Positions 403 to 57,014 of a stretch of DNA of 64,000 bases are shown piece after piece. A program made the translations under genes and the position numbers. Source of the stretch: a virus; IMG/VR virus record IMGVR_UViG_3300004151_000007, positions 1 through 64,000 of that record, one strand, 5' to 3'. Numbering within the stretch: position 1 is the first letter of the stretch; every line of letters begins with the position of its first letter. The notes beneath the pieces are model-generated. The model did no database searches. It saw only the letters and a list, made by a program, of their open reading frames with translations, and was not told where the DNA came from.

Positions 403-420
403 CGTCGTGACGGCATGCTG
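403..420 (+). promoter_or_regulatory. 18-bp late element, copy A
   Basis: Reads CGTCGTGACGGCATGCTG. A copy of the dispersed 18-bp element (consensus GGTCGTGACGGCACACTG), 33 nt before the tape-measure GTG. A 9-bp perfect hairpin (GGCCCATGC/GCATGGGCC, 420-446) begins at its last base. Proposed phage late promoter; function inferred. Confidence 0.6.
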
Positions 421-452
421 GCCCATGCAGCCTCACCGCATGGGCCAAAGCC

Positions 453-3191
453 GTGTCCGTCCGTATACCGATTTCCGCTGACGCTTCCAGCGTCACCAGC
501 GCCTTCGAGCAAATCCGCACTGCTCTGCGCCGTGCTGGGCAAGAAGGCAAGGCCTTTGCAGACCTCGACCTGTCGCATCCGGAACTAAAGGCGGTTTCGG
601 AGGATCTGAAGCGGTTGCAGACGAATTATGAGAGTTTGCAACGCATGGGCCGTGGCCAGACGGCGGCAGCCGTGCGCGGAATCGGCGCCAATGATTGGCT
701 GGGCTGGTATGACCAGCACGCGCAGGCTTTCCCAGATGAAGGGGACCGCGTTCGGCACTTCCGAACCGCCGGTCGGTACATCCTCCAGGGGTCACGCTAT
801 GCCCCTCCTCCGCCGCCAGCTCCTGGCGGTGGCGCTCCGGGTGGAGGTGGGGGGCCCGGAGGAGGAGAGCCGGGCGGCGGAACGCCCGGTGGAGGCGGTC
901 CTGGGGGGGGAGGAACCCCGGGCGGCGGCTCCAACGGCGGAGGAATGATGTCTGCGGCCATGTCTCTTGGCCGCGGCGCCATGCCTTACATGATGCTGAT
1001 CGGCGGGCTCCAGGCCATCGGCTCCGCGTTCTCGACGGCCATGGAGAACGCGTCGGAGGAGAGCAGGGCGAACGACGGGCTGTATCGCACATTGCGGGAC
1101 GGCTCCACCGACTTCGACAAGCTGTTGTTGTCAGTGCGAAAGACCACGGACGGTCTGGGGCTGACCTATCAAGAGGCGCAGCGCCTCAGCCTCGCCTGGG
1201 CCAACCTGACCAACGAGACGCGTGCCGGCAACATCCAGGATCAGGTGCGGTTCGGCGCCGGTTTTGCCCGTGGCTACGGCCTCGATCCGTCGGCTGTCGT
1301 CCAGGGTATGGGCCGGGCCGCTTTCCTTGGCGAAGACCCCAAGCGGTTCGCCGCGATGATCGCGGATGCGGCGCAGAGCGGCGGGATGACCGGGCAGGTG
1401 CAGGAGACCATGCAGGCGGTGCTGCGCTGGTCTGAGCACATGAGCCGCAGCGCCGTCACCGGCACGGGAGCCGAGAGCTTCGCCGCGATGTACGCCGGTT
1501 TGAACGCCACCGGCCTGCCTGGGCTGAAGGGGGGCGGGGCGGAAGAGCTGATCAACCGCATCAACGCGGCTGTAACGCAGGGCGGCGCTTTCGGCGAAGC
1601 GTCGAAATACGTCACCATGAACGCCTTCGCCCGGCACGGTGTGACCGATCCCTACAAGCTCCAGTACCTTCTGGAAGGCGGCGCCTTCGGTAAGCCGCGC
1701 GACGTCGGCGTGGCGGACGATGCCACGAACTTCGAGATCATGCGGGAACAGGTCAACCGCATGTTCGGCACCGCAGAGGAAAACAAGGACGATCCGTACC
1801 GGCGCTGGAACGCGATGTCGCTCCAGATGGGCATCAACATGCGGCAGGCAGCCGCGCTGGACCAGATGCACTATGGCGAAATCGGGCAGGTGGAGCGTGT
1901 GCTGGGGCGCGCTGGCCTGTCGCTGTCCACCGTCAATGCCGGCGCCATCAACGACATCGCCGCAGTCTCGCATGCGGACGATGCCGGACTGGACGATTGG
2001 CGCCAGAGGATCATGGGCCGCAAGGACGTCGCAGAGACGGATGCGGCCAAACTGATCGGGTTGAGCGGGGATGGGCTGCGCGAGGAGATGGTCCGCCTTC
2101 TGGCGCAATACGGTCTGGAAAAGACAGAGGGGCAGAAGACGATTGATGCCACTGCGGCGCTGACCAATGCGCTGACCAGCGTCGGTGAACAGCTCCTACC
2201 GCTGCGCAACGACATTCGGCAACTGGCCGATGGCATCAGCAGCATGGTGGGAGCCTGGAACACGCGTTTCAGCACGCCCGGCTCGGCCCAACTCGTGCCT
2301 CCGACCGGCCCCGGTTCCGTGCTTCCCTTCACCCCGCCCCCCCCGCCGGCGGCAGTGAATCCCAACGCAATTCCTCCAACGCCTCCGCGAGCACCTGGCG
2401 CGCCCGATCCGACTGTCGGACCGGCGCCCGCACCCGGTTCTCTCTCCTCCGAACAGACGGCCAGCGTCGATTATCTGCTCGCTCTGGAGCGGGTCGAGAG
2501 CGCGAACGGTGCGGCAATGGTCGCGCCGGGCAGCAGCGCCCGCGGGTGGCACCAATTCACGAAAGGAACATGGCTGAACACCGTCCGGAAGCATGCAGGC
2601 GACCGCGTCGCGGGCATGACCGAAGACGAGATTCTGGCCTTGCGCTTCAACAAGGAATTCAGCCGGGACATGGCGTCCCTGCACATCAACAAGGACTTGG
2701 TCCCCAGTTTGAAGGGGGCTGGAGTCGATGTGACGCCGCTGTCGCTCTATGCAGGCTGGCATTTCGGCGCCGGGGGCGGGCCAAAGGTCATGCAAGCCGG
2801 CGACACGGAGTTGATGGAAAACGTTCTATCCGAGGATGCCGTCACAGCAAATCCGTACCTCAAGGGGATGAACGTCGGCCAGTGGAAGCGGCTCTTTGGG
2901 GCGAAGTTCGGATTCCCGTACCAACCGAGCGCTGGCGCGCCCGTAACGGCTCCCATGCTGCTGCCGCAGCAGGACGGCGGACAGACACCGATGATCCCGC
3001 GCATGGAAGGGCCGCCAACGGGAACCCCCGCTCCAGGTGGGGCATCGCCGACCGCCGTTGGGAGCACGAGCCTCTCCTTTCGGATCGACCCGTTGCGCGT
3101 TGTGCGGGAGGGGCAGGACGGCACGGTGGAGAGCGTCGAACACCTGCCGGTTACTCAGGTCGGAGCGCCACGGCCGTGGGGGCTTGCGTGA
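453..3191 (+). CDS. Tail tape measure protein with lytic transglycosylase-like domain
   Basis: 912 residues from a GTG start. The N-terminus (MSVRIPISADASSVTSAFEQ) is tape-measure-like. Residues ~118-164 are an extreme Pro/Gly linker, followed by a hydrophobic stretch (~165-195). Residues ~605-665 form a second Pro-rich linker, and from ~670 there is a transglycosylase-like domain: LALERVESANG supplies the probable catalytic Glu, followed by ARGWHQFTKGTW and YAGWHFGAGGG. The protein should set tail length and cut peptidoglycan locally during DNA entry. It ends in a GTGA overlap with the hub gene. There is no strong Shine-Dalgarno; a hairpin lies in the leader. Confidence 0.85.
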   Translation: MSVRIPISADASSVTSAFEQIRTALRRAGQEGKAFADLDLSHPELKAVSEDLKRLQTNYESLQRMGRGQTAAAVRGIGANDWLGWYDQHAQAFPDEGDRVRHFRTAGRYILQGSRYAPPPPPAPGGGAPGGGGGPGGGEPGGGTPGGGGPGGGGTPGGGSNGGGMMSAAMSLGRGAMPYMMLIGGLQAIGSAFSTAMENASEESRANDGLYRTLRDGSTDFDKLLLSVRKTTDGLGLTYQEAQRLSLAWANLTNETRAGNIQDQVRFGAGFARGYGLDPSAVVQGMGRAAFLGEDPKRFAAMIADAAQSGGMTGQVQETMQAVLRWSEHMSRSAVTGTGAESFAAMYAGLNATGLPGLKGGGAEELINRINAAVTQGGAFGEASKYVTMNAFARHGVTDPYKLQYLLEGGAFGKPRDVGVADDATNFEIMREQVNRMFGTAEENKDDPYRRWNAMSLQMGINMRQAAALDQMHYGEIGQVERVLGRAGLSLSTVNAGAINDIAAVSHADDAGLDDWRQRIMGRKDVAETDAAKLIGLSGDGLREEMVRLLAQYGLEKTEGQKTIDATAALTNALTSVGEQLLPLRNDIRQLADGISSMVGAWNTRFSTPGSAQLVPPTGPGSVLPFTPPPPPAAVNPNAIPPTPPRAPGAPDPTVGPAPAPGSLSSEQTASVDYLLALERVESANGAAMVAPGSSARGWHQFTKGTWLNTVRKHAGDRVAGMTEDEILALRFNKEFSRDMASLHINKDLVPSLKGAGVDVTPLSLYAGWHFGAGGGPKVMQAGDTELMENVLSEDAVTANPYLKGMNVGQWKRLFGAKFGFPYQPSAGAPVTAPMLLPQQDGGQTPMIPRMEGPPTGTPAPGGASPTAVGSTSLSFRIDPLRVVREGQDGTVESVEHLPVTQVGAPRPWGLA

Positions 3192-5391: not shown

Positions 5392-5392
5392 C

Positions 5393-5410
5393 GGTCGTGA
5401 TGGCAGGATG
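5393..5410 (+). promoter_or_regulatory. 18-bp late element, copy B
   Basis: Reads GGTCGTGATGGCAGGATG. The next gene's ATG (5416) lies 23 nt from its first base, and the element's 3' end merges with a GGAGGT-like ribosome binding site. Confidence 0.6.
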
Positions 5411-5415
5411 GAGGT

Positions 5416-6546
5416 ATGGCGCCTCCATCCCAAAAACACCGCAAGATCGGCTTCTACCTGGAAGGCGGCGGTGGCGGCACGAAGACATGGAACTTCGTGA
5501 TCCGCCCCGAAGAGCTGACCCGGCAGGAACCCTCCAGGTTGGCCGTTCAGCAGACGCTGGGCGGTGCCTGGGTGGATTCTTTTGACCGTGGGGTGCAGTC
5601 CATCACGCTCGCCGGCCATACTGGCTGGCGCGGTGGCGTGGGCGGCGATGGGGCTGCGCAATTCGAAAAACTGCGCGCCACCGTGTTCACGGACTGGCAC
5701 GAACGGCGCGCGGTAGCTGCCGCTCGCGGGCAGGACCCGGACAATGTAAAGCTGTTCTTTGCCGACACGCTCGACAAAATCACCGCGCTGGTGGCTCCGA
5801 AATCGTTCAGCTTGCGGCGGTCGAAATCTTCACCGCTGTTGATGAGGTACCAAATCCAATTGGTGGTTCTGGATGATGCGGCAAAGCCGGGAAGCATCAA
5901 CGATGCGATTACCGGCGCGCTCTTCAATCCGTTGCGCTGGCTTGCGGCCAAGCTTGGTCTCGAAAATCTATTTGATGAAATCGGCGGGATCATCTCCGAC
6001 ATCAAGCAACTGTACTCGGACATTGTCGACATTGTCACGGATGTCTGTGCGTTCGTCCAAGGGTGCGTGCAGCTTGTGCTGGACACGATCGACGCGGGTG
6101 GCGGGCTGGTTGACGAACTGACGGCTCCGATCCTCCAGACGGTCCAGTTGGTGTCGGAAGCGACCCGAAACGGGTTCGCCGCTCTGGCTCGGGCGCAGAC
6201 CTCCTTTTCGATCAAGAGCGTCCTCATGCGGGCCGCCAGCGCCATGAACGACATCTCATGCACGATCAATCACGGATTCGACACTGGCCGCTACTTCCGC
6301 TCGTACGATGATCTGTTCGGCGCCAGCTCCTGCTCATCCACCGGCGGCGGTCGACCCTGGTCGACTTTCGCCGAACAGCAGAAGAACCCGTTCAACAGCA
6401 TGTTCCCTCCAGTGTCCTCGCGGCTGACGGTGTCCGCTGGCGGGCGTGACGCGCTGGACACGCTGCGGCGCGATCCCCTCACCCTGATCCCGGCGGTGGC
6501 CACACAGGCACTGGCGGCCCTGCCGGCAGGAGTTACCGTGTCATGA
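5416..6546 (+). CDS. Baseplate/tail protein (DNA-circulation or gp53-like)
   Basis: 376 residues. The segment GVQSITLAGHTGWRGG near residue 60 resembles the start of the conserved domain of phage proteins encoded just before LysM/gp25 baseplate genes. The middle (~185-260) is amphipathic and hydrophobic (IISDIKQLYSDIVDIVTDVC). It ends with an ATGA overlap onto the LysM-gp25 gene. Placement in the baseplate wedge rests mainly on position. Confidence 0.5.
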   Translation: MAPPSQKHRKIGFYLEGGGGGTKTWNFVIRPEELTRQEPSRLAVQQTLGGAWVDSFDRGVQSITLAGHTGWRGGVGGDGAAQFEKLRATVFTDWHERRAVAAARGQDPDNVKLFFADTLDKITALVAPKSFSLRRSKSSPLLMRYQIQLVVLDDAAKPGSINDAITGALFNPLRWLAAKLGLENLFDEIGGIISDIKQLYSDIVDIVTDVCAFVQGCVQLVLDTIDAGGGLVDELTAPILQTVQLVSEATRNGFAALARAQTSFSIKSVLMRAASAMNDISCTINHGFDTGRYFRSYDDLFGASSCSSTGGGRPWSTFAEQQKNPFNSMFPPVSSRLTVSAGGRDALDTLRRDPLTLIPAVATQALAALPAGVTVS

Positions 6547-10184: not shown

Positions 10185-10202
10185 TGTCGTGACGCCATGA
10201 TC
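10185..10202 (+). promoter_or_regulatory. 18-bp late element, copy C
   Basis: Reads TGTCGTGACGCCATGATC. It is followed by a stem-loop whose arms are TGATCGGCTC (10198-10207) and GGAGTCGATCA (10224-10234), with one mismatch. The next ATG is at 10237. Confidence 0.5.
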
Positions 10203-10236
10203 GGCTCAAAGGTGCTTGCCCTTGGAGTCGATCATA

Positions 10237-10719
10237 ATGGCTATCCTGACGACGAGCGGCCGCACAGCGATTGCCATTGCTGTTGCGGCCCAGCCCATCC
10301 ACCTCGCGTGGGGCGCGGGCAATGCGGTGTGGGACACCACGCCGGAGTCTGAACCCACCTCTGCTGCCGCGCTCGTGCAAGAGCTGGGAAGGCGCGCGGT
10401 CTCGGTGCTGAAATACTGCATCCCGAACCCCACCGGCGAAATCATCGTGCCGACCGGCCGCTATGCCGAGAGCGTGACGCCGACAAATCACCTCTACGTC
10501 CGATTCAACTTCGACTACGCCGATGCTGCCGCCGCGAACATCCGCGAGGTCGGCGTCTTCATCGGCACCGTCGTCAAGGGCAGCTTGCCGCCCGGTCAAA
10601 CATATTTCGCGTCGGCTGACCTGAACAGTCCAGGCACGCTTCTGGCTCTGCAACGCATCCCGAAAATCGTGCGCAGCGGCGCCACCCGGCAAAGCTTCGA
10701 GTTCGTGCTGACCCTGTGA
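10237..10719 (+). CDS. Tail/baseplate accessory protein
   Basis: 160 residues starting at ATG 10237, just after the copy C hairpin. MAILTTSGRTAIAIAVAAQP and IHLAWGAGNAVWDT, then NIREVGVFIGTVV, look like a small beta-rich phage structural protein. I cannot name the family. It is separated by 10 nt from the DUF4815 gene and probably translated with it. A role in the baseplate-fibre junction is inferred from position. Confidence 0.5.
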   Translation: MAILTTSGRTAIAIAVAAQPIHLAWGAGNAVWDTTPESEPTSAAALVQELGRRAVSVLKYCIPNPTGEIIVPTGRYAESVTPTNHLYVRFNFDYADAAAANIREVGVFIGTVVKGSLPPGQTYFASADLNSPGTLLALQRIPKIVRSGATRQSFEFVLTL

Positions 10720-13936: not shown

Positions 13937-14725
13937 ATGACCATCATTGATGATCGGACGCCCCACAACAACTGGCCGCTACCGAACAGCGCGAACCAGC
14001 TCGCGGACGACGCTGATCGGCTACGATTGGCGCTGACCGCCATCGACGCTGCGCTGGAGACCAAGGCGTCGCTGATGAGCGTCGAGGCGGCCATAGCAGC
14101 GCTTGTGGCCAGTGCCCCAGCGGCGCTCGACACGCTCAACGAACTGGCTGCGGCGCTGGGCAATGATGTCAATTTCTCGACGGCCATCACCAACGCGCTT
14201 GCGACTAAGGCGACCAGGGACTTAACGAATGTCACGCGCGCAGTGATCGCCAACAAGCTCTACGTTACCGCCTCGGCCAACCCGACGACCAGCGACGATG
14301 GCTATCCGATCGGAACGCGCTGGATCAACACGACGACCAATGAAGAGTTCACCCTCGTCGATGCGACGACAGCGGCGGCGAAATGGCGGTCGTTGTCGGC
14401 GTTGACTCCAGGAACGTCAACGTTCTCCAACGGAACCCTCACGCTGGATTGGGCGACCGGAACTGTGTTTAGCCACACGGCGACCGCCGCCATCACCTCC
14501 ATGGTGCTTTCCAACGCCCCGACCGCCGGTGAAAGCTACTTTCTTCTGCGCCTGACCAACGGCGGGGCCTATGCCGTCGCGTTTCCGACCAACTACGCGG
14601 CTTCCGGTGGCTTAACGGTCGGGATCGGGACGCTGACAGCGTCCGGTGTTGATGAAATCCTATTCCGTCGCAAAGGTGACGGAAGCGTTGTCAAGCTGTC
14701 GATCGCCAAGGACGTGAAGCCATGA
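13937..14725 (+). CDS. Tail fibre protein
   Basis: 262 residues. Residues ~45-85 carry the phage tail-fibre repeat (SAPAALDTLNELAAALGNDV followed by NFSTAITNALATKA) found in shafts of many fibres. A short head domain follows (IGTRWINTTTNEEFTLVDAT), then a beta-rich end. It overlaps the next fibre gene by ATGA, so both are probably made in fixed ratio. Likely the proximal fibre or an adaptor for the large receptor-binding protein. Confidence 0.78.
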   Translation: MTIIDDRTPHNNWPLPNSANQLADDADRLRLALTAIDAALETKASLMSVEAAIAALVASAPAALDTLNELAAALGNDVNFSTAITNALATKATRDLTNVTRAVIANKLYVTASANPTTSDDGYPIGTRWINTTTNEEFTLVDATTAAAKWRSLSALTPGTSTFSNGTLTLDWATGTVFSHTATAAITSMVLSNAPTAGESYFLLRLTNGGAYAVAFPTNYAASGGLTVGIGTLTASGVDEILFRRKGDGSVVKLSIAKDVKP

Positions 14726-17388: not shown

Positions 17389-17406
17389 GGTCGTGACGGC
17401 ACTCTG
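17389..17406 (+). promoter_or_regulatory. 18-bp late element, copy D
   Basis: Reads GGTCGTGACGGCACTCTG, one of the closest copies to the consensus, between the tail-operon hairpin and the small membrane-protein gene at 17449. Confidence 0.65.
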
Positions 17407-17448
17407 ACCTCACGCCAGAAGGGCGCAGATCAAGCTGGGATCGGTGCT

Positions 17449-33548: not shown

Positions 33549-34128
33549 CCACCCCACGGTGCCAACGCGGATCGTCCATATGGCCGCCGCTGTCAACGGT
33601 GCTGGAGGCGTTTCAGCGGCGTGCTTCGTCAAACCGCGCGCCGTTGATCTGGTCCGTGCGACATGGACACTCAGGCCCGACGCTGTGACCTGTCCGAGAT
33701 GCCGCCGCACCCTTGTCATGGGGGGGCTGGAGACCGGCCAGCCCCAACGCCTCCAACTTTCCCGTCGGCGCGGTGCCCGGCTGCCGCCCGGAACCGTCAA
33801 GGTCGACCGCACGAACAAGCTATTGGGGAATCCGTTCCGGCCGATCGACCCCAAGAACCCGGAGCACGTCGCGGCCGCAGTCGCCTACTATGACCGATAC
33901 CTGAGCAACCCGGGCGGCGAGACCTTCGCGTGCGGCCCGGAGACGGGGGTGGTGCTGGCCTTCGTGCCGGCTCCCGATCATGCCCGACGTGTCCTCGACG
34001 CCCTGCCCCAGCTCCGCGGGCGCAATTTGGGCTGCTGGTGTCGCTTGGGCTCCCCCTGCCACGGGGACATCCTTCTGCGCCGGGCCAACGCTGATGATGG
34101 CGCTGGGCCGGTCGTGACGACCTTCTGA
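33541..34128 (+). CDS. DUF4326-like protein with zinc-binding N-terminus
   Basis: 195 residues from ATG 33541, overlapping the DUF1643 stop. The N-terminal half has one CPRC pair. The C-terminal ~110 residues match DUF4326: VKVDRTNKLLGNPFRPIDPK, then PQLRGRNLGCWCRLGSPCHG and DILLRRAN. The CWC...PCHGD motif suggests metal or nucleotide binding; the activity is unknown. The last codons contain a copy of the 18-bp late element. Confidence 0.75.
   Translation: MHDHPTVPTRIVHMAAAVNGAGGVSAACFVKPRAVDLVRATWTLRPDAVTCPRCRRTLVMGGLETGQPQRLQLSRRRGARLPPGTVKVDRTNKLLGNPFRPIDPKNPEHVAAAVAYYDRYLSNPGGETFACGPETGVVLAFVPAPDHARRVLDALPQLRGRNLGCWCRLGSPCHGDILLRRANADDGAGPVVTTF
34110..34127 (+). promoter_or_regulatory. 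18-bp late element, copy inside gene end
   Basis: GGTCGTGACGACCTTCTG at the very end of the DUF4326 gene. No protein gene follows before a terminator, only a structured non-coding stretch. It may drive a small RNA or be chance, since it also encodes PVVTTF. Confidence 0.35.
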
Positions 34129-34298
34129 TCTGGCTCCCATGGGAGCGGTCAGGGCCTGAGAGGAGATCCTGGGTGGCGTGCCGGCGCCGCGGCGAACAAA
34201 GAGACCATCGAGCCCTCTCAGGGGTAGATGCGCGCTTGCGGGAAATGGTCTCGACCGTGCCATAGGGCCGCCCCAACCGGGCGGCCCTATGCTTTTCT
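34129..34298 (+). ncRNA. Candidate structured small RNA
   Basis: This ~170-nt non-coding stretch follows a late-element copy and ends in a strong terminator. Complementary segments CCTGAGAGG (34155-34163)/CCTCTCAGG (34214-34222) and GAGACCAT (34201-34208)/ATGGTCTC (34245-34252) interlace, allowing a pseudoknot. A short palindrome GCTCCCATGGGAGC lies near its start. No known RNA family is recognised. Confidence 0.35.
34259..34298 (+). terminator. Rho-independent terminator
   Basis: Arms GCCATAGGGCCGCC and GGGCGGCCCTATGC (34259-34292) are followed directly by TTTTCT. It is the clearest intrinsic terminator in the window; a late element starts 8 bp after it. Confidence 0.8.
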
Positions 34299-34305
34299 GG
34301 CCAGC

Positions 34306-34323
34306 GGTCGTGACGCGAAGCTG
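34306..34323 (+). promoter_or_regulatory. 18-bp late element, copy E
   Basis: GGTCGTGACGCGAAGCTG, placed between a terminator and the gene at 34388. A stem GATGGT (34323-34328)/ACCATC (34357-34362) begins at its last base. Confidence 0.65.
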
Positions 34324-34387
34324 ATGGTCCTCAAGATCGAGGCATTGCACCCACGCACCATCGCAGCCCCAAGGAGGGGCCATCATC

Positions 34388-34750: not shown

Positions 34751-34768
34751 GGTCGTGACGGAAGCCTG
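34751..34768 (+). promoter_or_regulatory. 18-bp late element, copy F
   Basis: GGTCGTGACGGAAGCCTG, 32 bp before the ATG of the excisionase-like gene. A short stem GTCAT/ATGAC lies in the leader. Confidence 0.55.
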
Positions 34769-34799
34769 TGGGTCATAATCGGCCACGACATGACACGCC

Positions 34800-35009
34800 A
34801 TGACCACCGAGACAATCGCGTCCCCTTTGAAACTGCTGTCGCAGGACGAGGCCGCCGCATCGCTCCGCATCAGCCGTCGGACCCTCCAGCGCCTTCGCGC
34901 ATCCGAAGCTGGTGGCCCGCCCTTCGTCCGCATCGGCGAGCGCCGCATCTGCTATCGCGCGTCCGACCTGGATACATGGCTGGCCGCGCAGCAGGAGGCC
35001 CGCTCGTGA
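34800..35009 (+). CDS. Excisionase-like helix-turn-helix protein
   Basis: 69 residues. LLSQDEAAASLRISRRTLQR then PFVRIGERRICYRASDLDTW form the winged HTH_17 fold of excisionase/AlpA proteins, ending LAAQQEARS. It lies ~90 bp from a loxP-like dyad, so it could direct recombination at it, or it could be a transcription factor. It is driven by late element copy F and overlaps the next gene by GTGA. Confidence 0.72.
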   Translation: MTTETIASPLKLLSQDEAAASLRISRRTLQRLRASEAGGPPFVRIGERRICYRASDLDTWLAAQQEARS

Positions 35010-45130: not shown

Positions 45131-45148
45131 GGTCGTGACGGCCTCATG
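45131..45148 (+). promoter_or_regulatory. 18-bp late element, copy G
   Basis: GGTCGTGACGGCCTCATG, 29 bp before the membrane-protein ATG. A stem GGCCTC (45140-45145)/GAGGCC (45168-45173) overlaps its 3' part and the ribosome site. Confidence 0.55.
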
Positions 45149-45176
45149 GAGGGGTAACTCTTCCTTGGAGGCCACC

Positions 45177-45764
45177 ATGTTCCCCAAAATCCTCGCGTTC
45201 CTCTTCAGCGTCGATTGGCTGCTGCTGGCCCGTGACCTGCTCGGCGCCTTCGTCGTCGGCGCCATCCTCTATCGCATCCGCGGCGGCTGGTTGGGCCGCT
45301 ACATCCCCGGCGGCACCCTGCCAGCCCGACTGATTTGGGCCATACCGACGGGCGTTTTGGTCGGCTTCCAGCTCGACCATGTCGCTGTTGGCGTCCTGAC
45401 GGCTGCGCTTGCCTTTCTGATGCTCCTGAACACCCATGGCCGCTGGATGGACATCGCCCATATCGACGGTCGGCTTTCGGACGATCTGCACGCCATGTCC
45501 GCCGTCGGTGTCGAGCGGCTGTATGGGATGCTCCTCCCCATCGGCTTCGTGATCCACCCGGCGGCGCTGCTGCTGGTGCTGGCCGGGTTCCTTCAGGGAC
45601 CGCTCTACTGGTTGGCGTGGAAACTGCCCGTCCTGGATTCCTGGCGTGCGGCCGGCGACAAGGCGCCCGTCGACGCGGAAACAGCCTGGGGCGAACTGCT
45701 GTGGGGCGGGGTGCAGTGGTGCGCGCTGCTGCTGGCCTGCCGAGCAGCCTCCAGCGCCCTATAG
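45177..45764 (+). CDS. Multi-pass membrane protein in lysis region
   Basis: 195 residues with GGAGG before ATG 45177. About four or five hydrophobic stretches are visible (LLLARDLLGAFVVGAILYRI; LIWAIPTGVLVGFQL; VGVLTAALAFLMLL; LYGMLLPIGFVIHPAALLLV; then LLWGGVQWCALLLACRAASS). It lies just upstream of the endolysin with its own late element. The family is unknown; lysis control or a virion/membrane role are options. Confidence 0.6.
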   Translation: MFPKILAFLFSVDWLLLARDLLGAFVVGAILYRIRGGWLGRYIPGGTLPARLIWAIPTGVLVGFQLDHVAVGVLTAALAFLMLLNTHGRWMDIAHIDGRLSDDLHAMSAVGVERLYGMLLPIGFVIHPAALLLVLAGFLQGPLYWLAWKLPVLDSWRAAGDKAPVDAETAWGELLWGGVQWCALLLACRAASSAL

Positions 45765-45766: not shown

Positions 45767-45784
45767 GGTCGTGACGCGACACTC
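45767..45784 (+). promoter_or_regulatory. 18-bp late element, copy H
   Basis: GGTCGTGACGCGACACTC starts 2 bp after the previous stop codon. A stem CTCGTG (45782-45787)/CACGAG (45804-45809) begins within its end; the endolysin ATG is at 45816. Confidence 0.65.
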
Positions 45785-45815
45785 GTGGGGTACCCATCTC
45801 CCTCACGAGGCTGCT

Positions 45816-46679
45816 ATGCCCCTCCCCTTCTCCGGCGCCGCCCGCCCGCTTGGCGCTGCCGACATGCAGTATGTTGCGACGCTGTTGGGCTGCGATCTTC
45901 CCGCCGTGCAAGCCGTCCTGACCGTCGAGACCGGCGGCTGTGGCGGCTTCCTTTCCGACGGCTCCGGCCGCCCGCGCATCCTGTTTGAGGCGCACAAGTT
46001 CTCGGCCGCGACCGAAGGTCGGCATGACGAGACCCACCCGGGCATCTCCTCGCCGTCCTGGAACCGCAAGCTCTACAAGGGCGGGGCCGGGGAATACCTC
46101 CGGCTGGAGGAGGCTGTCGGCCTCGATCGCGCCGCGGCGCTGAAATCCGCGTCCTGGGGCATGTTCCAGGTTTTGGGGGCGAACTGTCGCGCCTGCGGAT
46201 TCGCCGATGTCGAGGAATTCGTCGCGGCCATGGCAGAATCTGAGTTCGCCCAACTCCAGGCATTCGGCGTGTTTGTGCTGCACGCTGGGCTTGCGCCAGT
46301 GCTTCGCGTTCATGATTGGGCAGCCTTCGCCGAGGGCTACAACGGTGCTCGGTACCGTGAGAACCAGTACGACAGCAAGTTGGCCGTCGCTTACGCTGAA
46401 GCCGTCGAGCGGGCGGGTGCGACGGCCGCTCGACAGGTTCAGGCCATCCCGACGTCGTCGGTGTCCGCCGTTGCGATGCTGCGCATCGGCGCGCGTGGCC
46501 CGGCGGTCAAACGACTGCAATCCGCGCTCAATCGGCACGGTGCGGACTTGGCCCTTGATGGAGCATTTGGTCGCGCCACCGAAATCGCAGTCGAAAAATT
46601 CCAGATCGACCATCGTCTTGTTGCGGACGGTGTCGTCGGGCCGAAGACGGTCGCCGCGTTTGATGGCGACCTGGACTGA
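45816..46679 (+). CDS. Endolysin: N-acetylmuramidase plus peptidoglycan-binding domain
   Basis: 287 residues from ATG 45816. VQAVLTVETGGCGGFLSDGS (with the likely catalytic Glu), RPRILFEAHKF and SASWGMFQVLGANCRACGFA, then FAEGYNGARYRENQYDSKLA, are the DUF3380 muramidase pattern. Residues ~225-283 form a PG_binding_1 module (RIGARGPAVKRLQSALNRHG; LDGAFGRATEIAVEKFQIDH). No signal peptide, so release needs the holin encoded next. It has its own late element. Confidence 0.9.
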   Translation: MPLPFSGAARPLGAADMQYVATLLGCDLPAVQAVLTVETGGCGGFLSDGSGRPRILFEAHKFSAATEGRHDETHPGISSPSWNRKLYKGGAGEYLRLEEAVGLDRAAALKSASWGMFQVLGANCRACGFADVEEFVAAMAESEFAQLQAFGVFVLHAGLAPVLRVHDWAAFAEGYNGARYRENQYDSKLAVAYAEAVERAGATAARQVQAIPTSSVSAVAMLRIGARGPAVKRLQSALNRHGADLALDGAFGRATEIAVEKFQIDHRLVADGVVGPKTVAAFDGDLD

Positions 46680-46737: not shown

Positions 46738-47316
46738 ATGCTCGGTTTTCTCATGGCGTTGCTGCCGCTAATCCCAAATCTGATCGGCTTGGCCGATGAA
46801 AAAGCCGGTAAAGTCGCGGGGGCCTTGGTGCCGGCCGTGCAAGCGCTCACCGGCCAAACGGAACCGGAGGCGGCTGTCGCCGCGCTCAAAGCCGATCCCA
46901 CCCTCCTACTTCAGGCGCAGAAGATTGCGAGCGACGCGCTACTGGCTGTCGAGCGTGAGGACACCGAGCGCTTACGGATCGTCAATGAGACCATCCGCGC
47001 GGAGGCCAACAGCGCTGACGAATACGTGCGGCGCTGGCGACCGTATTGGGGCTACTGGTCGGCCCGAGCATGGGTGGCGCAGACGTTTGCTGTCTGTATC
47101 TCTGTCGTCGGCGCCACCATCGCCGGTATGATGGGGCATGCGACGGAGGCGCGAGAAATTCTGGCCGGGATCGCCTCTCTGGTCGACGCCATGACCATCC
47201 CGTGGGTGACGTCGCTCGCGGTGCTGGGCGTGTCGGTGGTGCAGCGAAGCAAGGACAAGAACGGCGGCAGTCCTCTCGACTTGCTGGGCATGCTTGGGCG
47301 AAAAGGCAAGCCATAG
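46738..47316 (+). CDS. Holin of the 3TM type
   Basis: 192 residues. An N-terminal hydrophobic helix (LGFLMALLPLIPNLIGLA), an acidic helical middle, then the conserved RRWRPYWGYWSARAWVAQTF and two further membrane helices (VCISVVGATIAGMM; TIPWVTSLAVLGVSVVQRSK) match the 3TM holin family. It would form the pore releasing the muramidase. It ends 4 bp before the CATAGGA/TCCTATG palindrome. Confidence 0.85.
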   Translation: MLGFLMALLPLIPNLIGLADEKAGKVAGALVPAVQALTGQTEPEAAVAALKADPTLLLQAQKIASDALLAVEREDTERLRIVNETIRAEANSADEYVRRWRPYWGYWSARAWVAQTFAVCISVVGATIAGMMGHATEAREILAGIASLVDAMTIPWVTSLAVLGVSVVQRSKDKNGGSPLDLLGMLGRKGKP

Positions 47317-47401
47317 GATTTTCCTATGCAATCATTCATAACAGCTTGACAAAAATAGAGTGGCGCATTGCGTCACCCTATGTCCGAGTGATATTCCTAT
47401 G
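47312..47401 (+). promoter_or_regulatory. Promoter with TAGGA/TCCTA operator
   Basis: The perfect palindrome CATAGGA-TTT-TCCTATG (47312-47328), a TTGACA box (47346-47351) and another TTCCTATG (47394-47401) lie in the AT-rich gap before the zinc-protein gene. It looks like a repressor-controlled promoter for the packaging operon; the -10 box is unclear. Confidence 0.5.
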
Positions 47402-47419
47402 CCCTACGGAGTTACACCG

Positions 47420-47974
47420 ATGGGGCAAACCATGGAACTGGAGCTGTTCCGCTGCGACCGGCGCGCACTGAGCCTCACCAAGGTGAGCTGCGCTGCGTCT
47501 TGGCAAGCGGCGGAGCGCAAGCGTCCGGAGCCGTGGGAAGGTCGTTGGCACTGTCGGACCTGCCCCATCGGGGCAGCCCATGCTGGCAAGCCGCTACCGG
47601 CGACTGCGGCCACCGTAGAATCACTCCAGTGTCTGTGCCCTCGCTGCCAGAGGCAGGCCTCGCGTCTCATCAACGGGCGCCTGTGCGTCTCCTGCTACAA
47701 CCGTGAGCGCGAGGCACTGCGGGGGCGGAACGCAAAAGGCGGCGTGCCGCGGCTCACCGCCATTCTGCATGACGACAAGGTCCTGATCGTCCGTGACGGC
47801 ATACTGCGCCTCCATGTCGTGCGCCGCGTCACCAATGCGGCGGAGAGCATGCTGGTGCTGGGCAGGGCGGCGACCGGATCGGGATCTCTGGCGTTCAGTC
47901 GGCCAGCGGCGCCGCTGGTCCGCCACCCACGGGTGGCGGCTGCCGCTGCGGTCCAGTTGGAGTTGGGCCTGTGA
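47420..47974 (+). CDS. Zinc-binding phage regulator-like protein
   Basis: 184 residues from ATG 47420 with GGAG at good spacing (ATG 47399 is also in frame). Two Cys groups are visible: RWHCRTCPIGAAHAG and CLCPRCQRQASRLINGRLCV with SCYNREREALRGRNAKGGVP. The family is common upstream of packaging genes in proteobacterial phages and may be regulatory. The C-terminal ~75 residues are beta-rich and unassigned. GTGA overlap with the next gene. Confidence 0.6.
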   Translation: MGQTMELELFRCDRRALSLTKVSCAASWQAAERKRPEPWEGRWHCRTCPIGAAHAGKPLPATAATVESLQCLCPRCQRQASRLINGRLCVSCYNREREALRGRNAKGGVPRLTAILHDDKVLIVRDGILRLHVVRRVTNAAESMLVLGRAATGSGSLAFSRPAAPLVRHPRVAAAAAVQLELGL

Positions 47975-48267
47975 GGGACAGCGGCTGGACACTCACCCCG
48001 CACTGTTGTCGGCACTGCGGGATCGGGCGTGTGCTGGAGCGGGATGGCACCTTCCGATGCTCGCTCTGCGGCGTCGAGGCCAAAGGGCGCGTCGCCGCGC
48101 TGTGCGCCTGTGGCGTGCCCGGATACCGCTGTGCGCCGAATCCCATGCGCACGGCGGCCAATCCCTACGAAATCCTTGCCCAAATGGTCGAGGAGACGGC
48201 GGCGGACAAGTTGACGCGCAAGGCAAGGGGGCCTGTTGCCGTGGATGGAGGTCTGTTCGGTGGATGA
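47971..48267 (+). CDS. Small zinc-ribbon protein
   Basis: 98 residues from GTG 47971. PHCCRHCGIGRVLERDGTFR and CSLCGVEAKGR form one zinc ribbon; CACGVPGYRCAPNPM may form a second. The C-terminus is helical. Probable nucleic-acid-binding partner of the preceding zinc protein, overlapping it by 4 bp. Confidence 0.55.
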   Translation: MRDSGWTLTPHCCRHCGIGRVLERDGTFRCSLCGVEAKGRVAALCACGVPGYRCAPNPMRTAANPYEILAQMVEETAADKLTRKARGPVAVDGGLFGG

Positions 48268-49405: not shown

Positions 49406-51451
49406 ATGGCGGTCGGGCGGCAGAACCCTCTGGAGACATCACGGGCGGCGCAAAACCGCATGATCGCGGCTCTGGAGCGCGAACTGAACCTGACCACCGG
49501 TGCCCTCAAGAGCCCGATCCCGCCCGGCATGACGTTCCGGCAGTGGGTCGAGAAGCTGGGGGACGAGGGGATGAAGGTCGACGGGAAGGCCTTCAAGCTG
49601 GATGACCGCCCGGCCATGGCCTGGATTTATGACCAGGTCCCCAGCACGGAGGACGAGGCCTATCGTTTCGTGCTGGTCCTCCAGAAGTGCGCGCAGGTCG
49701 GATTTACCGTCATGGAGATGTTGGCCACCATCTACCTGGGCCTCCGGTTCGGCCCGGCCACCGTGGGCATGTTCTTGCCCGACATGAACCTCGCCGGGGT
49801 GAAGTCGACCGAGCGCTTCATGCCGATCGTCCGGTCGGTCCCCTCCGTCCATGCCTTGATGACGCATGAGGCGCAGGATGGCAGCGGCCGCAAGGCGGGC
49901 GAAGGCAACGTGACCCGTCGGCGCGTTGGTGAGGCGTTGTTCATCTTCTCGTGGACCTCCGGCCGGGCGACCACGGAGTCGATCCCGATGGATGTCCTCT
50001 CCTTCGATGAAGTCCAGGAAATGAGCCTGGAACAGATGGAGAAGACGCTGGAACGTCTGTCGGCTTCCCCGATCCGCTTCGTGCTGATGGGCTCGACGGC
50101 CAACTGGCCAGATTCCGATATTAACCACTGGTACAAGCGAGGGTCGCAATACCGGTTCCACACCGAATGCCCGGAGTGCGGCCGGCGCAAACCTCTGGAC
50201 GATTATTTCCCAGCCTGCATCAAATGGGACCCGATCCGACACGCTGATCGGTATGTGTGCGAGGCTGGTCACTGGATCGATGATCCGCAGCGGGGGGCCT
50301 GGATCGCGGACAATCCAGACGCAGACCAGCCGATCGACTACGCGATTCCGAAGAAGGATCGGCCGCTCCGCATCCGCAGCATCCATTTCCCGCAGTTCCT
50401 CTCCCCGACAATTTCCGCCGGCGAAATCCTGTATGCCTACAACTCTGCCACGGACCTGAAGAATTTTTACAATCGAAAGCTGGGCAAGCCATACCTCGAT
50501 CCCAGCCAAGTCCCGGTGACGCTGGAGCATTTGGCCGCGTGCGAGAAGACCGGCATTGCCGCCGGGCTTGTCTGGAAGACGCGGGCGCAAGGCACGTTCA
50601 TGGGCATCGACCAGATGGGCAATTTCAACTGCGTGATCATCAAAGAGCGCCTGCCCGACGGTCGGCAGGCGGTGATCCATGTTGAGGAGGTCTACAGTGA
50701 AAATCCCTTCGCCCGCTGCTCGGAGCTGATGGAGACCTATGGCGTCGCGGCGTGCGTGGTCGAAATCAACCCGAACTACAACGACGCCAAGCGCTTCGCC
50801 AACCGCCACAAGGGCAAGGTCTTCATCTGCGATTCTTACGGGTCGCTGAAGGAGGGCATGATCCAGTGGGGGGATGCACCACGGCTCGATGTGTCCGAGC
50901 GCCGCACCGCCGAGGCCGAGCGCGACCGCTATACCGTCCGGCTCGACCAGTACAAGTGCATGCAGGTCGCCATGGCCCGCCTCACGCAGACCATCTGCCT
51001 CTTCCCCGACCGTCAGGGGCTTGTGCAGGAGGTGCGGGAGAAGGGGGTGCGGCAGACGGTGCCGGTCCTGCCGCGCGCATTCCTCCACTTCACCAAGACG
51101 GCGCTGGTGGCGGAGAAGGATGACGAGACCAACGCCTTCCGCCGGTCGGTCAAGAAGGTGGGGATCGACCCGCACTTTTCATACGCGAATATGCTGTGCG
51201 ATGTCGCCTGGGCGCGCGCACACGGCACGAACACCTTCATCATGCCCGACGTGAGGCCACAGGCGGCCGTGGCTCAGAAACTGGTGGAGGCCATGCCGGG
51301 CCTGCCGGCCAACGTCGTCAAGCTGATTGACGATCTGCCGGCCGGGGTGTGCGGGCGATGCACCGCCTTCGTTGATGGGCAGTGCACCGAGCGTCATTTC
51401 TCGGTGGCGCCGAAGGACCCGGCGTGCGTCGTGTTCATTCCACGCGAGTAG
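49406..51451 (+). CDS. terL: Large terminase subunit (GpA-like)
   Basis: 681 residues. The ATPase region has LQKCAQVGFTVMEMLATIYL in the Walker A position (adapted, as in lambda gpA relatives) and MDVLSFDEVQEMSLEQMEKT as Walker B. A zinc-like CPECGRRKP follows at ~255. The nuclease half includes FMGIDQMGNFNCVIIKERLP with its catalytic Asp and ends with cysteines (CGRCTAFVDGQCTERHF). It packages DNA into proheads. A TAGG array and late element separate it from the portal. Confidence 0.88.
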   Translation: MAVGRQNPLETSRAAQNRMIAALERELNLTTGALKSPIPPGMTFRQWVEKLGDEGMKVDGKAFKLDDRPAMAWIYDQVPSTEDEAYRFVLVLQKCAQVGFTVMEMLATIYLGLRFGPATVGMFLPDMNLAGVKSTERFMPIVRSVPSVHALMTHEAQDGSGRKAGEGNVTRRRVGEALFIFSWTSGRATTESIPMDVLSFDEVQEMSLEQMEKTLERLSASPIRFVLMGSTANWPDSDINHWYKRGSQYRFHTECPECGRRKPLDDYFPACIKWDPIRHADRYVCEAGHWIDDPQRGAWIADNPDADQPIDYAIPKKDRPLRIRSIHFPQFLSPTISAGEILYAYNSATDLKNFYNRKLGKPYLDPSQVPVTLEHLAACEKTGIAAGLVWKTRAQGTFMGIDQMGNFNCVIIKERLPDGRQAVIHVEEVYSENPFARCSELMETYGVAACVVEINPNYNDAKRFANRHKGKVFICDSYGSLKEGMIQWGDAPRLDVSERRTAEAERDRYTVRLDQYKCMQVAMARLTQTICLFPDRQGLVQEVREKGVRQTVPVLPRAFLHFTKTALVAEKDDETNAFRRSVKKVGIDPHFSYANMLCDVAWARAHGTNTFIMPDVRPQAAVAQKLVEAMPGLPANVVKLIDDLPAGVCGRCTAFVDGQCTERHFSVAPKDPACVVFIPRE

Positions 51452-51478
51452 CTAAGTAGGTAGGTAGCAACCTACCAG
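51446..51478. promoter_or_regulatory. TAGG-repeat array S5
   Basis: GTAGCTAAGTAGGTAGGTAG plus CAACCTACC; GGTAGGT/ACCTACC (51459-51476) form an inverted repeat. It overlaps the end of the terminase gene and lies ~20 bp before a late element. Confidence 0.5.
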
Positions 51479-51498
51479 CGCAGGTGCGCGCCCGGTCC

Positions 51499-51516
51499 GG
51501 TCGTGACGCTACCCTG
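51499..51516 (+). promoter_or_regulatory. 18-bp late element, copy I
   Basis: GGTCGTGACGCTACCCTG. The portal ATG (51522) is 23 nt from its first base and no Shine-Dalgarno lies between, suggesting a leaderless message. Confidence 0.65.
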
Positions 51517-51521
51517 TCATC

Positions 51522-53288
51522 ATGACCGATGATGCCCGCCAGATTGCGTTCGATTCCGCCGCTCCGGCTGCCGAGCGCTATGACGCCAATGCCGAGCTGC
51601 AACAGGCGCATCGGCCAACCGCGTCCGACCTGATCCCCGCTGACCATATGCGGCCGGTGATCGACTTCATCGCCGCCTCTTTCGAGGAACAGGGCCTGCT
51701 GGCGAAAGCGCGCGGGCAAGCCGTCGAGTTTCCCGGTCGGACGCGACCGCCTCCGGCGCGCGGCATGCAGTCGGTACAACTCGACAACCTGCAAATCCAG
51801 GCCTACGGCGACTATTGGGAGAAGCCGTCGCCGCTCGGCTTCGACGGTTTGCGGGCCATGGTCGACCAGACCCCGGTGCTGAACGCCGTCGTGTTGACCC
51901 GCATCCGACAGGTGAGCCGCTTCACCCAAATCAGCGAGGACGGCGGCCCTGGTTTCGAGATCCGGCACGTCGACAAGACGCACAAGCTGACGCCGGATGA
52001 GAAGGAGAGCACGCAACTCTTGGCGAAGTTCTTCGCCAACTGCGGATGGGAGTTCAACCCGCGCAAGCGCAAGCTGCTGCGGCGCGACAATTTCAGCCAG
52101 TTCATGGCGAAGATGGTCCGCGACAGCCTGACCATGGACAGCGCGCCGATCGAGACGGAGTTCAAGCGCGACCGCACGCTGGGCATGGACGGCTTCTATG
52201 CGGTCGACGGCGCGACCATCCGCCTGTGCGCGGAGGACGACTACCAGGGCGACGACGAAATCTACGCCCTCCAGGTGGTGCAAGGTCGCATCGCCACCGC
52301 CTACACCCGCGACCAGCTCATCTACGAGCCCCGGAATCCGCGGTCCGATGTGCGACTGGCCGGCTACGGCCTGGGCGAGACGGAGCTGCTGATCCGCACC
52401 GTCACCGGGTTCCTGAACGCCATGAACTACAACATCGCCGGGTTCGACCAAAACGCGATTCCGAAGGGCCTCCTCCATCTGACCGGCGACTATGGGCAGG
52501 AGGACCTGAACGCCTTCAAGCGTTACTGGAACGCCATGGTGAAGGGCGTCAACAACGCGTGGGCCTTGCCTGTCATGGTGTCGAAGGATCAAGAGAGTAA
52601 GGCGTCTTTTGAGCGTTTCGGCATCGAGTACAATGAAATGTACTTCGCGAAATGGATGACGTTCCTGACGTCGATCATCTGCGCGATCTACGGCATGTCG
52701 CCGGATGAAATCAATTTCGAATCATTCAGCGCGCAAAAATCAAGTCTTTCAGGGTCCGATACGGCTGAAAAACTGGCCGATAGCAAGGACAAAGGGCTGA
52801 GGCCTCTGCTGTCCTATTTCGAGTCAGTGTTCTCGGACTTCATCGTTTCGGAGTTCAGCGACAAGTATTGCTTCCGCTGGTTGGGCCTCGACGTGAAGGA
52901 CGAAGCGCGGGATTGGGAGAACAAAAAGCTGGTGCTGACCGTGGACGAGCTGCGGGCGGAGATGGGCTATGAGGCGCATCCGGACGATAAGCTCGGAGCG
53001 GCCCCGCTGAACCCCTCGCTGATCGGGCCATGGATGCAGATGCAGCAGCCGGCGCAGCAGGGCCGAGACTTTGGCGGCGGCGCTGGCGTGGATTTTGGCG
53101 CGGCGCCCGACGATGCTGGAGGCGATGGCCAGGATGAGCCCGACCAGGGCGATGTCGATGGGCAGGACGAGCCGGATAGGAACGTCGGTGCCGATCCGGC
53201 TGGTGGCGAGTTCGGGGGCGGGAACGGCGGCGGCGATTTCGGCAAGGCGTTGGCGGCGTCGACCGTGATCTACACGGTGGGCGAATGA
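51522..53288 (+). CDS. Portal protein
   Basis: 588 residues. LRAMVDQTPVLNAVVLTRIR and the central NYNIAGFDQNAIPKGLLHLT, then FERFGIEYNEMYFAKWMTFL and ICAIYGMSPDEINFESFSAQ, are portal signatures (PBSX-type). The C-terminal ~90 residues are Gly/Asp-rich and disordered. The dodecameric ring is the DNA gate of the head. It is the first gene after element I and overlaps the zeta-like gene by 4 bp. Confidence 0.9.
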   Translation: MTDDARQIAFDSAAPAAERYDANAELQQAHRPTASDLIPADHMRPVIDFIAASFEEQGLLAKARGQAVEFPGRTRPPPARGMQSVQLDNLQIQAYGDYWEKPSPLGFDGLRAMVDQTPVLNAVVLTRIRQVSRFTQISEDGGPGFEIRHVDKTHKLTPDEKESTQLLAKFFANCGWEFNPRKRKLLRRDNFSQFMAKMVRDSLTMDSAPIETEFKRDRTLGMDGFYAVDGATIRLCAEDDYQGDDEIYALQVVQGRIATAYTRDQLIYEPRNPRSDVRLAGYGLGETELLIRTVTGFLNAMNYNIAGFDQNAIPKGLLHLTGDYGQEDLNAFKRYWNAMVKGVNNAWALPVMVSKDQESKASFERFGIEYNEMYFAKWMTFLTSIICAIYGMSPDEINFESFSAQKSSLSGSDTAEKLADSKDKGLRPLLSYFESVFSDFIVSEFSDKYCFRWLGLDVKDEARDWENKKLVLTVDELRAEMGYEAHPDDKLGAAPLNPSLIGPWMQMQQPAQQGRDFGGGAGVDFGAAPDDAGGDGQDEPDQGDVDGQDEPDRNVGADPAGGEFGGGNGGGDFGKALAASTVIYTVGE

Positions 53289-55045: not shown

Positions 55046-55046
55046 C

Positions 55047-56237: not shown

Positions 56238-56242
56238 TCCGC

Positions 56243-56260
56243 CGTCGTGACGGCACACTG
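56243..56260 (+). promoter_or_regulatory. 18-bp late element, copy J
   Basis: CGTCGTGACGGCACACTG, almost the consensus itself. The next ATG (56266) is 23 nt from its first base, with no Shine-Dalgarno between. Confidence 0.7.
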
Positions 56261-56265
56261 CCGGC

Positions 56266-56946
56266 ATGACGATCCTCCTCCTCTGCAAATCCGACATCGA
56301 GGCCCGCTATCAGCGGCTCCTCGCACGCCGCACCGGCGGCGATCCTGTCGCGATGGCGGCGGAGGATCGCGCCATCTCCCTCCGCGTTCACGCGGCATCG
56401 CGCGACGTCGACCACGCTCCGACGTCAGCGCAGCTCGACGCTGGGAACTACCGCAAGCACCGTCTCCAGTTCCAGGGCCTCGACATCACGATCGAGAACC
56501 CACGGGGCTCCATCCGACGGGGTGTGGACTGCGGTGGCCACGAGTGGGCCATCTCCATGCAGCACCATTACGGCTATATCCGGGGCACGCTCGGCATCGA
56601 CGGCGACCATTTCGACTGTCTGGTGGGGCCGAACCCGGACGCGCCGACTGTCTACGTCGTGACCACGATGGCGCCGCCCGCCTTCATCGTGAAGGACGAG
56701 CAGAAGGCCCTGCTGGGCTTCAACACCGAGGAGGAGGCCAGGGCGGCGTTCGCCGGTATGTACGACGACCCACGGTTTTTCGGCAGTGTCGCCGAAATGC
56801 CAGTTGTGGAGTTCAAGCGGCAGGTCCTGACCACTCGGGATGCGCCGCGCCTTCTCAAGGCCGGCTCGATTCTGTTCCTGCGGGCCATGGTGCAAGCGCA
56901 TGACGGAGCACGCCACCGCGCGCAGCCTCGCTATCGCGACCGATGA
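56266..56946 (+). CDS. Polyvalent-protein InPase-domain protein
   Basis: 226 residues. Residues ~50-180 (TSAQLDAGNYRKHRLQFQGL; DITIENPRGSIRRGVDCGGH; HHYGYIRGTLGIDGDHFDCL) match the inorganic-pyrophosphatase-like domain of phage polyvalent proteins, usually fused to antirestriction modules and delivered with the DNA. Here it is a separate gene just before the DarB-like giant protein. The C-terminal ~35 residues may be out-of-frame noise. Likely role: antirestriction or protection on entry. Confidence 0.72.
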   Translation: MTILLLCKSDIEARYQRLLARRTGGDPVAMAAEDRAISLRVHAASRDVDHAPTSAQLDAGNYRKHRLQFQGLDITIENPRGSIRRGVDCGGHEWAISMQHHYGYIRGTLGIDGDHFDCLVGPNPDAPTVYVVTTMAPPAFIVKDEQKALLGFNTEEEARAAFAGMYDDPRFFGSVAEMPVVEFKRQVLTTRDAPRLLKAGSILFLRAMVQAHDGARHRAQPRYRDR

Positions 56947-57004
56947 GCGCCGGGAGACGGCGCAGCAGGACCTGTTCGCCTGGGGCGCCTCGAATCCGTC
57001 GTGA
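56900..57004 (+). CDS. Possible 34-residue ORF
   Basis: ATG 56900 encodes TEHATARSLAIATDERRETA then QQDLFAWGASNPS, overlapping the InPase gene end in another frame; its stop lies inside late element K. Its composition is protein-like. It could be a small gene or the true C-terminus after a frameshift. Confidence 0.3.
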   Translation: MTEHATARSLAIATDERRETAQQDLFAWGASNPS

Positions 57005-57014
57005 CAGCACACTC
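56997..57014 (+). promoter_or_regulatory. 18-bp late element, copy K
   Basis: CGTCGTGACAGCACACTC. An ATG (57020) stands exactly 23 nt from its first base and opens a nine-codon leader ORF that ends on the GTG of the DarB-like gene. Confidence 0.65.

Follow-up and report, generated by a model that had tools for sequence, protein, structure and literature searches.

We found that the 18 bp element repeated along the plus strand of the window (the whole stretch of DNA analysed, 64,000 nucleotides) is real, and there is strong support, as far as sequence alone can tell, for reading it as a phage-specific late promoter, because it combines a fixed spacing to a -10 element, an ATG at the predicted +1, a strand bias, family-wide conservation and a chance-level frequency in the hosts.

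RESULTS

The eleven copies of the preliminary description, as well as a weaker one at 34110, were all found on the plus strand at the positions given there (12 sites checked; Table 1), and four further copies were located past the window, in the 82,098 b record (64036, 70452, 72629 and 78567). A search allowing up to three mismatches to the full 18-mer gave eight matches in the window versus 0.07 expected from shuffles; the match at 47789 in this search was inside gene A and was rejected as a promoter copy. The pattern GTCGTGA[CT]NNNANNNT occurred 15 times in the record, when 0.31 were expected under a third-order Markov model (maximum of 2 in 200 runs), and GTCGTGAC was counted 17 times on the plus strand and once on the minus strand. 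To call the copies near-identical was an overstatement, although GTCGTGA and the T at index 16 were constant in 12/12; the A at index 12 was present in 10/12, being missing from the 34110 and 45131 copies. Their localisation in gene junctions was correct in general, but the weak 34110 copy lies within the last codons of a gene. Terminators had been described ahead of the 34306 and 34751 copies, and only the former was recovered. That all copies precede late genes is not secure for these same two, which have small genes downstream, one of them coding for an Xis/MerR-like HTH protein.

Table 1. Positions of the promoter copies and associated features in the window
Feature	Position	Strand	Remarks
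Late promoter copy 1	403..426	+	Box -23 to -14, -10 element, predicted +1 near 425-426
Tail transglycosylase gene	ORF 453-3191		Downstream of copy 403
Late promoter copy 2	5393..5416	+	Predicted +1 is the ATG of virion structural gene 5416-6546
Late promoter copy 3	10185..10208	+	SD-bearing leader, then virion gene 10237-10719
Late promoter copy 4	17389..17412	+	Small gene downstream, GTG start at 17449
Weak copy, doubtful	34110..34133	+	Without A at -11; in the end of gene 33541-34128
Intrinsic terminator stem-loop	34261..34291	+	Immediately 5' of copy 34306
Late-type promoter copy	34306..34329	+	Small gene 34388-34618 downstream, SD present
Late-type promoter copy	34751..34774	+	Xis/MerR-like HTH gene 34800-35009 downstream
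Copy without A at -11	45131..45154	+	Gene 45177-45764 downstream (SD present), itself 5' of the endolysin gene
Late promoter copy	45767..45790	+	Endolysin gene 45816-46679 downstream, SD present
Gene A, candidate activator subunit	47399..47974	+	191 aa, 8 invariant Cys, invariant basic stretch
Gene B, candidate activator partner	47971..48267	+	98 aa, zinc-ribbon-like, overlaps the end of gene A
Late promoter copy	51499..51522	+	Predicted +1 is the A of the portal gene ATG (51522-53288), without SD
Late promoter copy	56243..56266	+	Predicted +1 is the A of the ATG of gene 56266-56946, without SD
Late promoter copy	56997..57020	+	Predicted +1 is the A of the ATG of a 9-codon ORF
9-codon predicted leaderless ORF (MAITRGTVQ)	57020..57049	+	TGA overlaps the GTG start (57046) of a 2111-aa DarB-like gene; translational coupling possible

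The element consists of two parts at an invariant spacing, GGTCGTGACG at -23 to -14 and a sigma70-type -10 (nAnnnT) spanning -12 to -7, with A at -11 and T at -7. In 297 sites from 24 genomes, the box GTCGTGAC was accompanied by C/A at -8 and by a preference for A at +1 and T at +2, and there was no information upstream of -22 and no TTGACA-like -35 at 16-18 bp. When the -10 was not preselected, 328 GTCGTGA[CT] sites were found on the late strand, with A at index 12 in 83%, T at index 16 in 84% and both letters in 257, versus both letters in 6/43 sites on the opposite strand (A in 21%, T in 33%). The element had been considered unlike a sigma-70 promoter, which is right as regards the absent -35 but not for its 3' half, a sigma70-type -10; it had also been considered unlike a sigma-54 promoter, and no conserved GC was indeed found in the 297 sites at the spacing that the required GG(-24)/GC(-12) would need.

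In 7 of the 16 copies of the record, the predicted +1 coincided exactly with the A of an ATG. Among 258 distinct sites of the relatives, the ATG was at motif offset 23 in 101 (about 4 expected by chance), at offset 24 in 39 and at offset 22 in 7, so that 147 had it at offsets 22-24, and any other offset had only about 4; none of the 153 core sites without both -10 letters had an ATG at offset 23. In the 5' region of the portal gene the motif was kept and the flanks had diverged, with either the ATG at +1 or an intervening SD leader. Since the ATG is exactly at the predicted +1 in many copies, many of the late mRNAs are probably leaderless, both the start sites and the leaderless translation being inferred without RNA data.

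Nearly every related 70-110-kb myophage, from alpha-, beta- and gammaproteobacteria, had 8-17 copies on one strand; in most of 20 related contigs that had this number, the opposite strand had 0-1, and the reversed control gave 0. The RHOApe orthologue of the small gene starting at 17449 is likewise preceded by a promoter copy. Full motifs were almost absent from Mecenats66 and contig G019, in which gene A is present, and the promoters of these two look degenerate in sequence (GTGAT or CGTGAC plus a -10). Over-represented k-mers were not enough by themselves to pick out the motif in every relative. An equal frequency in host DNA, which would have refuted the phage-specific promoter, was not found; host chromosomes were at chance level outside prophages. 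In four host genomes with related prophages, the matches to motif plus ATG were only on prophage contigs, with one exception, and 289 alphaproteobacterial genomes contained three scattered matches and five within one prophage (controls, 2).

The sole non-virion genes found family-wide were the adjacent zinc-protein genes A and B, each present in 22 of 24 genomes (profile search for A); the other two carry gene A outside the stretches first examined. Among 399 proteobacterial genomes, gene A was detected in one, the prophage-bearing one. The late motif was missing 5' of gene A in 21/22 genomes, and the pair is early-looking. The 8 invariant Cys of A are, from the sequence, probable ligands of two zinc sites. 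The Pfam scan gave neither A nor B a family above the cut-off or an Ogr_Delta match, no PDB fold match and no DNA-binding fold were detected for them, and the structure model of A was only moderate (pTM 0.56).

Small enterobacterial satellite-like plasmids, which were identified through gene A only and not by the motif, contained relatives of gene A together with 2-4 full motif copies each (0.02-0.1 expected). The 11-kb pLAO97 is one plasmid of this kind. This co-occurrence is an independent link between A and the motif, and the plasmids look like parasites of these phages.

Two other candidates for the regulator were rejected. TraR-like zinc proteins beside the integrase were confined to some gamma/beta relatives. 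Gene 81 (77683-78558 of the record) was present in 24/24 genomes, usually on the opposite strand, and was taken as a virion/late gene because it is located in the virion block and has its own variant GGCGTGAC late promoter upstream.

DISCUSSION

The element is best read as a P1 Lpa-like late promoter, a box plus a -10, with a different box, a different spacing and probably a different activator. P1-type late promoters depend on the phage activator Lpa (gp10) and on host SspA. In both systems a short, partly palindromic box is placed directly 5' of a sigma70 -10 without a -35, the promoters are dispersed ahead of virion, lysis and packaging operons, and the activator gene is under a different promoter (L010/L011 annotation). 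In contrast, the P1 box is AAGTGACTT, separated from the -10 by 4 bp (10/11 P1 late promoters), leaving 6 bp from GTGAC to the -10, whereas here the box GTCGTGAC is followed by 2 bp and the -10, and GTGAC is 2 bp from it. Genes A and B are absent from P1, and Lpa was rejected as the recogniser, no homologue having been found with phmmer --max in the six-frame ORFs of 24 genomes.

We favour, as fairly probable when taken as a whole, a family late promoter at which the host RNA polymerase would contact the -10 (A at -11, T at -7) through its housekeeping sigma factor, without a -35. The box (-22 to -15), in the place of the -35, would be bound by a phage-encoded early protein, which would recruit or license the polymerase in the way that Lpa acts in P1. 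We infer a transcription start about 23 bases downstream of where the motif begins. In roughly half of the copies the start codon has its A at this position, and the corresponding late mRNAs would thus be leaderless. The need for an activator is, like the start sites, inferred in the absence of transcript data. The best candidates for the early protein are A and B, to which we give about an even chance of being the activator, an inference made without activity data; their universality could merely reflect an old lineage, as for virion genes.

A phage activator, an alternative sigma factor and an unusual polymerase had been proposed as recognisers; the first, acting with the host RNA polymerase, fits best and the other two are disfavoured. 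That a sigma factor encoded by the phage, or a divergent RNA polymerase of its own, reads the whole 18 bp element would agree with the length and phage specificity of the element, but it is very improbable: Sigma70_r2 was found in just 1 of 20 genomes and in none of the other 19, and A(-11)/T(-7) is the signature of bacterial sigma region 2. A phage RNA polymerase is unlikely, none being among the PHROG matches of the window genes; the single-subunit RNAP profile search was silent, and its control equally so. The dispersed, asymmetric and phage-specific sites in gene junctions could also be operators of a phage repressor acting over ordinary promoters and keeping the late genes silent in the lysogen, and a repressor-like protein is encoded in the window (22348-23016). 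We consider this quite improbable, since the sites show no conserved -35, which ordinary promoters require, the distances to the -10 and to +1 do not vary, and the repressor-like protein was matched in RHOApe only and not in other motif-keeping phages.

The box might instead be read by a transcription factor or sigma factor of the host, given that the motif is almost identical across phages of alpha-, beta- and gammaproteobacteria and that no known DNA-binding family is universal among them. This seems unlikely, because the chance-level frequency of motif plus ATG outside prophages in the 289 alphaproteobacterial genomes leaves no host regulon of such form visible. It is possible, though doubtful, that the activator is some other, fast-diverging phage protein, such as the Xis/MerR-like HTH protein (34800-35009) or the AraC-like proteins of gamma/beta phages. 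HTH_17 proteins were found in 15/20 genomes and AraC-like regulators in just about 8/24, and both were rejected as the activator; the former were missing from several motif-rich phages, and G014, G016, G017 and G018, with 12-17 good motif copies, lack both and have gene A.

P2 Ogr and P4 Delta, both small zinc-finger proteins, turn on late genes and are common to a helper phage and its satellite. A and B would, by analogy, resemble them in these respects, but Ogr and Delta bind near -55 and not at -22 to -15, and A and B have no Ogr_Delta Pfam match. L5 stoperators and P1 C1 operators are also dispersed asymmetric sites in gene junctions; to our knowledge their position is not tied to a start site, whereas here the distances to the -10 and +1 are constant. 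AR9 late promoters (consensus AACA-6N-TA/G, leaders of 26-491 nt; PMC5312081) share a genome-wide late consensus placed at a constant distance from the start site (PMC5312081), but they are read by a phage multisubunit RNAP, and a phage RNAP was not found here.

These results provide a late regulon for large phages and phage-plasmids of a widespread and barely studied family, which includes Bordetella PHB04, Pseudomonas Dolphis/Touem01, Aeromonas ST4, Yersinia fHe-Yen8-01, Rhodovastum RHOApe and dozens of IMG/VR contigs. They name two testable candidate activator genes without known relatives, and give a motif that can be used as a marker to find the regulon and satellites in other genomes. 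Leaderless late mRNAs are predicted in gammaproteobacteria, whose genes are, as far as we know, not commonly leaderless. The small Enterobacterales plasmids are probably dependent on, or interfering with, phages of this family. Tentatively, and with somewhat more doubt than confidence, we suggest a new class of late switch, in which a zinc pair unrelated to known proteins would license the host polymerase at -35-less GTCGTGAC/-10 promoters giving leaderless mRNAs in phages of three proteobacterial classes (alpha-, beta- and gamma-), and satellites that share these promoters and have their own copy of the activator domain may tune in to the switch or interfere with it.

Distribution of the late motif in the genome

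The gene content marks the virus as a myovirus phage-plasmid: among the predicted products are portal, terminase, sheath, major head, baseplate and endolysin proteins, as well as ParA, Rep, methylases and a P1-like DarB/Ulx pair. All twelve positions assigned to the 18-bp late motif in the preliminary description were correct when re-located in the window, which makes up the first 64,000 bases of the 82,098-base virus record; four more copies were found in the remaining 18 kb, which was examined alongside it (see the table). The pattern GTCGTGA[CT]NNNANNNT occurred 15 times in the 82 kb, against 0.31 expected.

Some other features were also recorded. The order of the DarB-like and Ulx-like genes was the same as in P1: the dar anti-restriction module of P1 in a phage whose virion genes had no P1 match except a tail-fibre repeat. 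Short direct and inverted repeats of the GTAGGTAGC type preceded three genes, with no function assigned, and the 8-mer TGGCCAAC was found 16 times on the plus strand of the whole record, in many places, against 2.3 expected, without explanation.

Features located in the virus record and its relatives
Feature	Position	Remark
Motif copies beyond the window	64036, 70452, 72629, 78567	record
ATG at motif index 23	5416, 51522, 56266, 57020, 64059, 70475, 78590	51522, portal gene
Gene starts after ordinary leader with SD	10237, 34388, 45177, 45816	downstream of other copies
Nine-codon ORF	57020-57049	stop overlaps DarB-like GTG
DarB-like gene	57046-63381	2111 aa
Ulx-like gene	63378-63716	
P1 S tail-fibre-like region	14126-14227	~70% identity to P1 repeat region; DNA also similar to tail-fibre genes on enterobacterial plasmids
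GTAGGTAGC-type repeats	~51450-51485 (window)	before portal gene
GTAGGTAGC-type repeats	~72590 (record)	before head protease gene
GTAGGTAGC-type repeats	~77660 (record)	before gene 81
Hairpin CATAGGAAAATCCTATG	47312-47328	upstream of gene A
Divergent late promoters, genes 81/82	G012 ~41350-41380; G003 ~44170; G023 ~C228:207480; PHB04 ~14000-14040	GGCGTGAC box on gene-81 copy

Promoter anatomy and predicted start site

In the aligned copies GTCGTGA was constant at motif index 1-7 (counted from the first motif base), followed by an A at index 12 and a T at index 16. The best conserved bases of the sigma70 -10 element are A(-11) and T(-7), four bases apart; the A and T of the motif have this same spacing, which places the +1 at index 23. 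The logo of 297 sites was blank upstream of -22, so a -35 element is lacking. When late-strand cores were taken without selecting for the -10 letters, the A was present in 83% and the T in 84%, and both together in 257 of 328 cores, versus 6 of 43 cores on the other strand.

Independently of the -10 reasoning, the A of an ATG fell on index 23 in seven of the 16 copies of this genome, and only one of these (5416) had an SD-like sequence. Among 258 distinct sites in relatives the ATG offset was 23 in 101, 24 in 39 and 22 in 7, with about four for each other offset, and no ATG was found at offset 23 among 153 core sites lacking both -10 letters. The nine-codon ORF begins exactly at the predicted +1 and ends in the overlap with the DarB-like GTG, suggesting that this leaderless mini-ORF loads ribosomes onto the non-AUG DarB-like gene.

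Conservation in related phages and near-absence from host DNA

About 100 related loci were gathered by sheath and portal searches, together with Bordetella phage PHB04, Pseudomonas phages Dolphis and Touem01, Aeromonas phage ST4, Yersinia fHe-Yen8-01, Morganella Mecenats66 and the Rhodovastum plasmid RHOApe. Before the portal gene, the motif was retained while the flanking DNA had diverged, with either an ATG at +1 or an intervening SD leader. In most of twenty large contigs one strand bore 8-17 copies and the other 0-1 (G007 had four; G019 had one on each strand), and in PHB04 and ST4, with virion genes on the minus strand, the motif was likewise on the minus strand. Gene 81, a divergent gene in the virion block, had a promoter of a variant type, GGCGTGAC, arranged back to back with that of its neighbour, gene 82. 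In Mecenats66 and G019 the motif was found only in degenerate form; Mecenats66 retained A/B (described below) while its late promoters had drifted to GTGAT plus a -10, and it contained the 8-mer GACTACCG 14 times, against 1.3 expected.

The preliminary description held that equal frequency in host DNA would refute a phage-specific promoter. In Nitrosomonas, Geminicoccus and Steroidobacter genomes with related prophages, motif-plus-ATG matches lay on prophage contigs, with one exception, and 289 alphaproteobacterial genomes had three scattered single matches and five in one known prophage, versus two matches for the reversed motif. These counts therefore favour the phage-specific promoter.

Candidate activator genes A and B

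A sigma70 region 2 was present in only one of 20 genomes, and no RNA polymerase was among the PHROG matches; a profile search for single-subunit RNA polymerases gave no match, but its control was silent too. Besides virion genes, profile searches found only the adjacent genes A (47399-47974 in the window) and B (47971-48267), which encode probable zinc proteins, in essentially all of 24 genomes (in G023 and G024 only A was looked for beyond the stretches first searched, and it lay just outside them). Invariant features of A were eight cysteines and an N-R-x-R-E...G-x-N-A-x-G stretch, and those of B an H and seven Cys; neither protein had a Pfam family above cut-off or a convincing PDB match by sequence or fold. 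By inspection, A/B were the first genes beside a divergent control region in several relatives. Of 22 genomes, 21 lacked the late motif upstream of A, which is what an early gene would show. The short hairpin or inverted repeat upstream of A may be an operator of this gene; a further TTCCTAT stands immediately before the ATG.

Elsewhere in bacteria A was very rare, occurring in 1 of 399 genomes. A plasmid search with protein A retrieved RHOApe and 42 small enterobacterial plasmids, five of which were examined (NZ_CP018944, NZ_CP100496, NZ_OP242302, NZ_OW849494 and NZ_CP033380). All five are small plasmids of Enterobacterales that are non-mobilizable and encode a gene-A-like domain. Each had 2-4 full motif copies, where 0.02-0.1 would be expected, and almost every copy lay a short distance before a gene; P1 had none. 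This co-occurrence is a separate line of evidence tying A to the motif. Two (19 and 27 kb) encoded homologues of the tail proteins and primase of ST4, with a TerS-related gene annotated in one, while the other three (10-14 kb) had no virion gene in common with the phages and, being interrelated, count as about one independent case. From these features we infer that the five plasmids look like plasmid satellites of the motif-bearing phage family. One of the five, pEC224_4, encodes CTX-M-14.

Comparison with P1

A search of the open-access literature found no paper on the motif, on the predicted leaderless late genes or on A/B. The closest model is the P1 late promoters, which have a AAGTGACTT box, 4 bp, a -10, no -35 and the activator Lpa (PMC8198154). 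Here, in contrast, the box is GTCGTGAC and lies 2 bp from the -10; Lpa was missing from the 24 genomes searched of the motif-bearing family, and A/B were missing from P1. We consider it very probable that the motif is a late promoter read by the host sigma70 polymerase and, with somewhat less assurance, probable that it needs a phage activator; that A/B are this activator has about an even chance. By analogy, the motif system would work like the P1 late system, yet without being a member of it.
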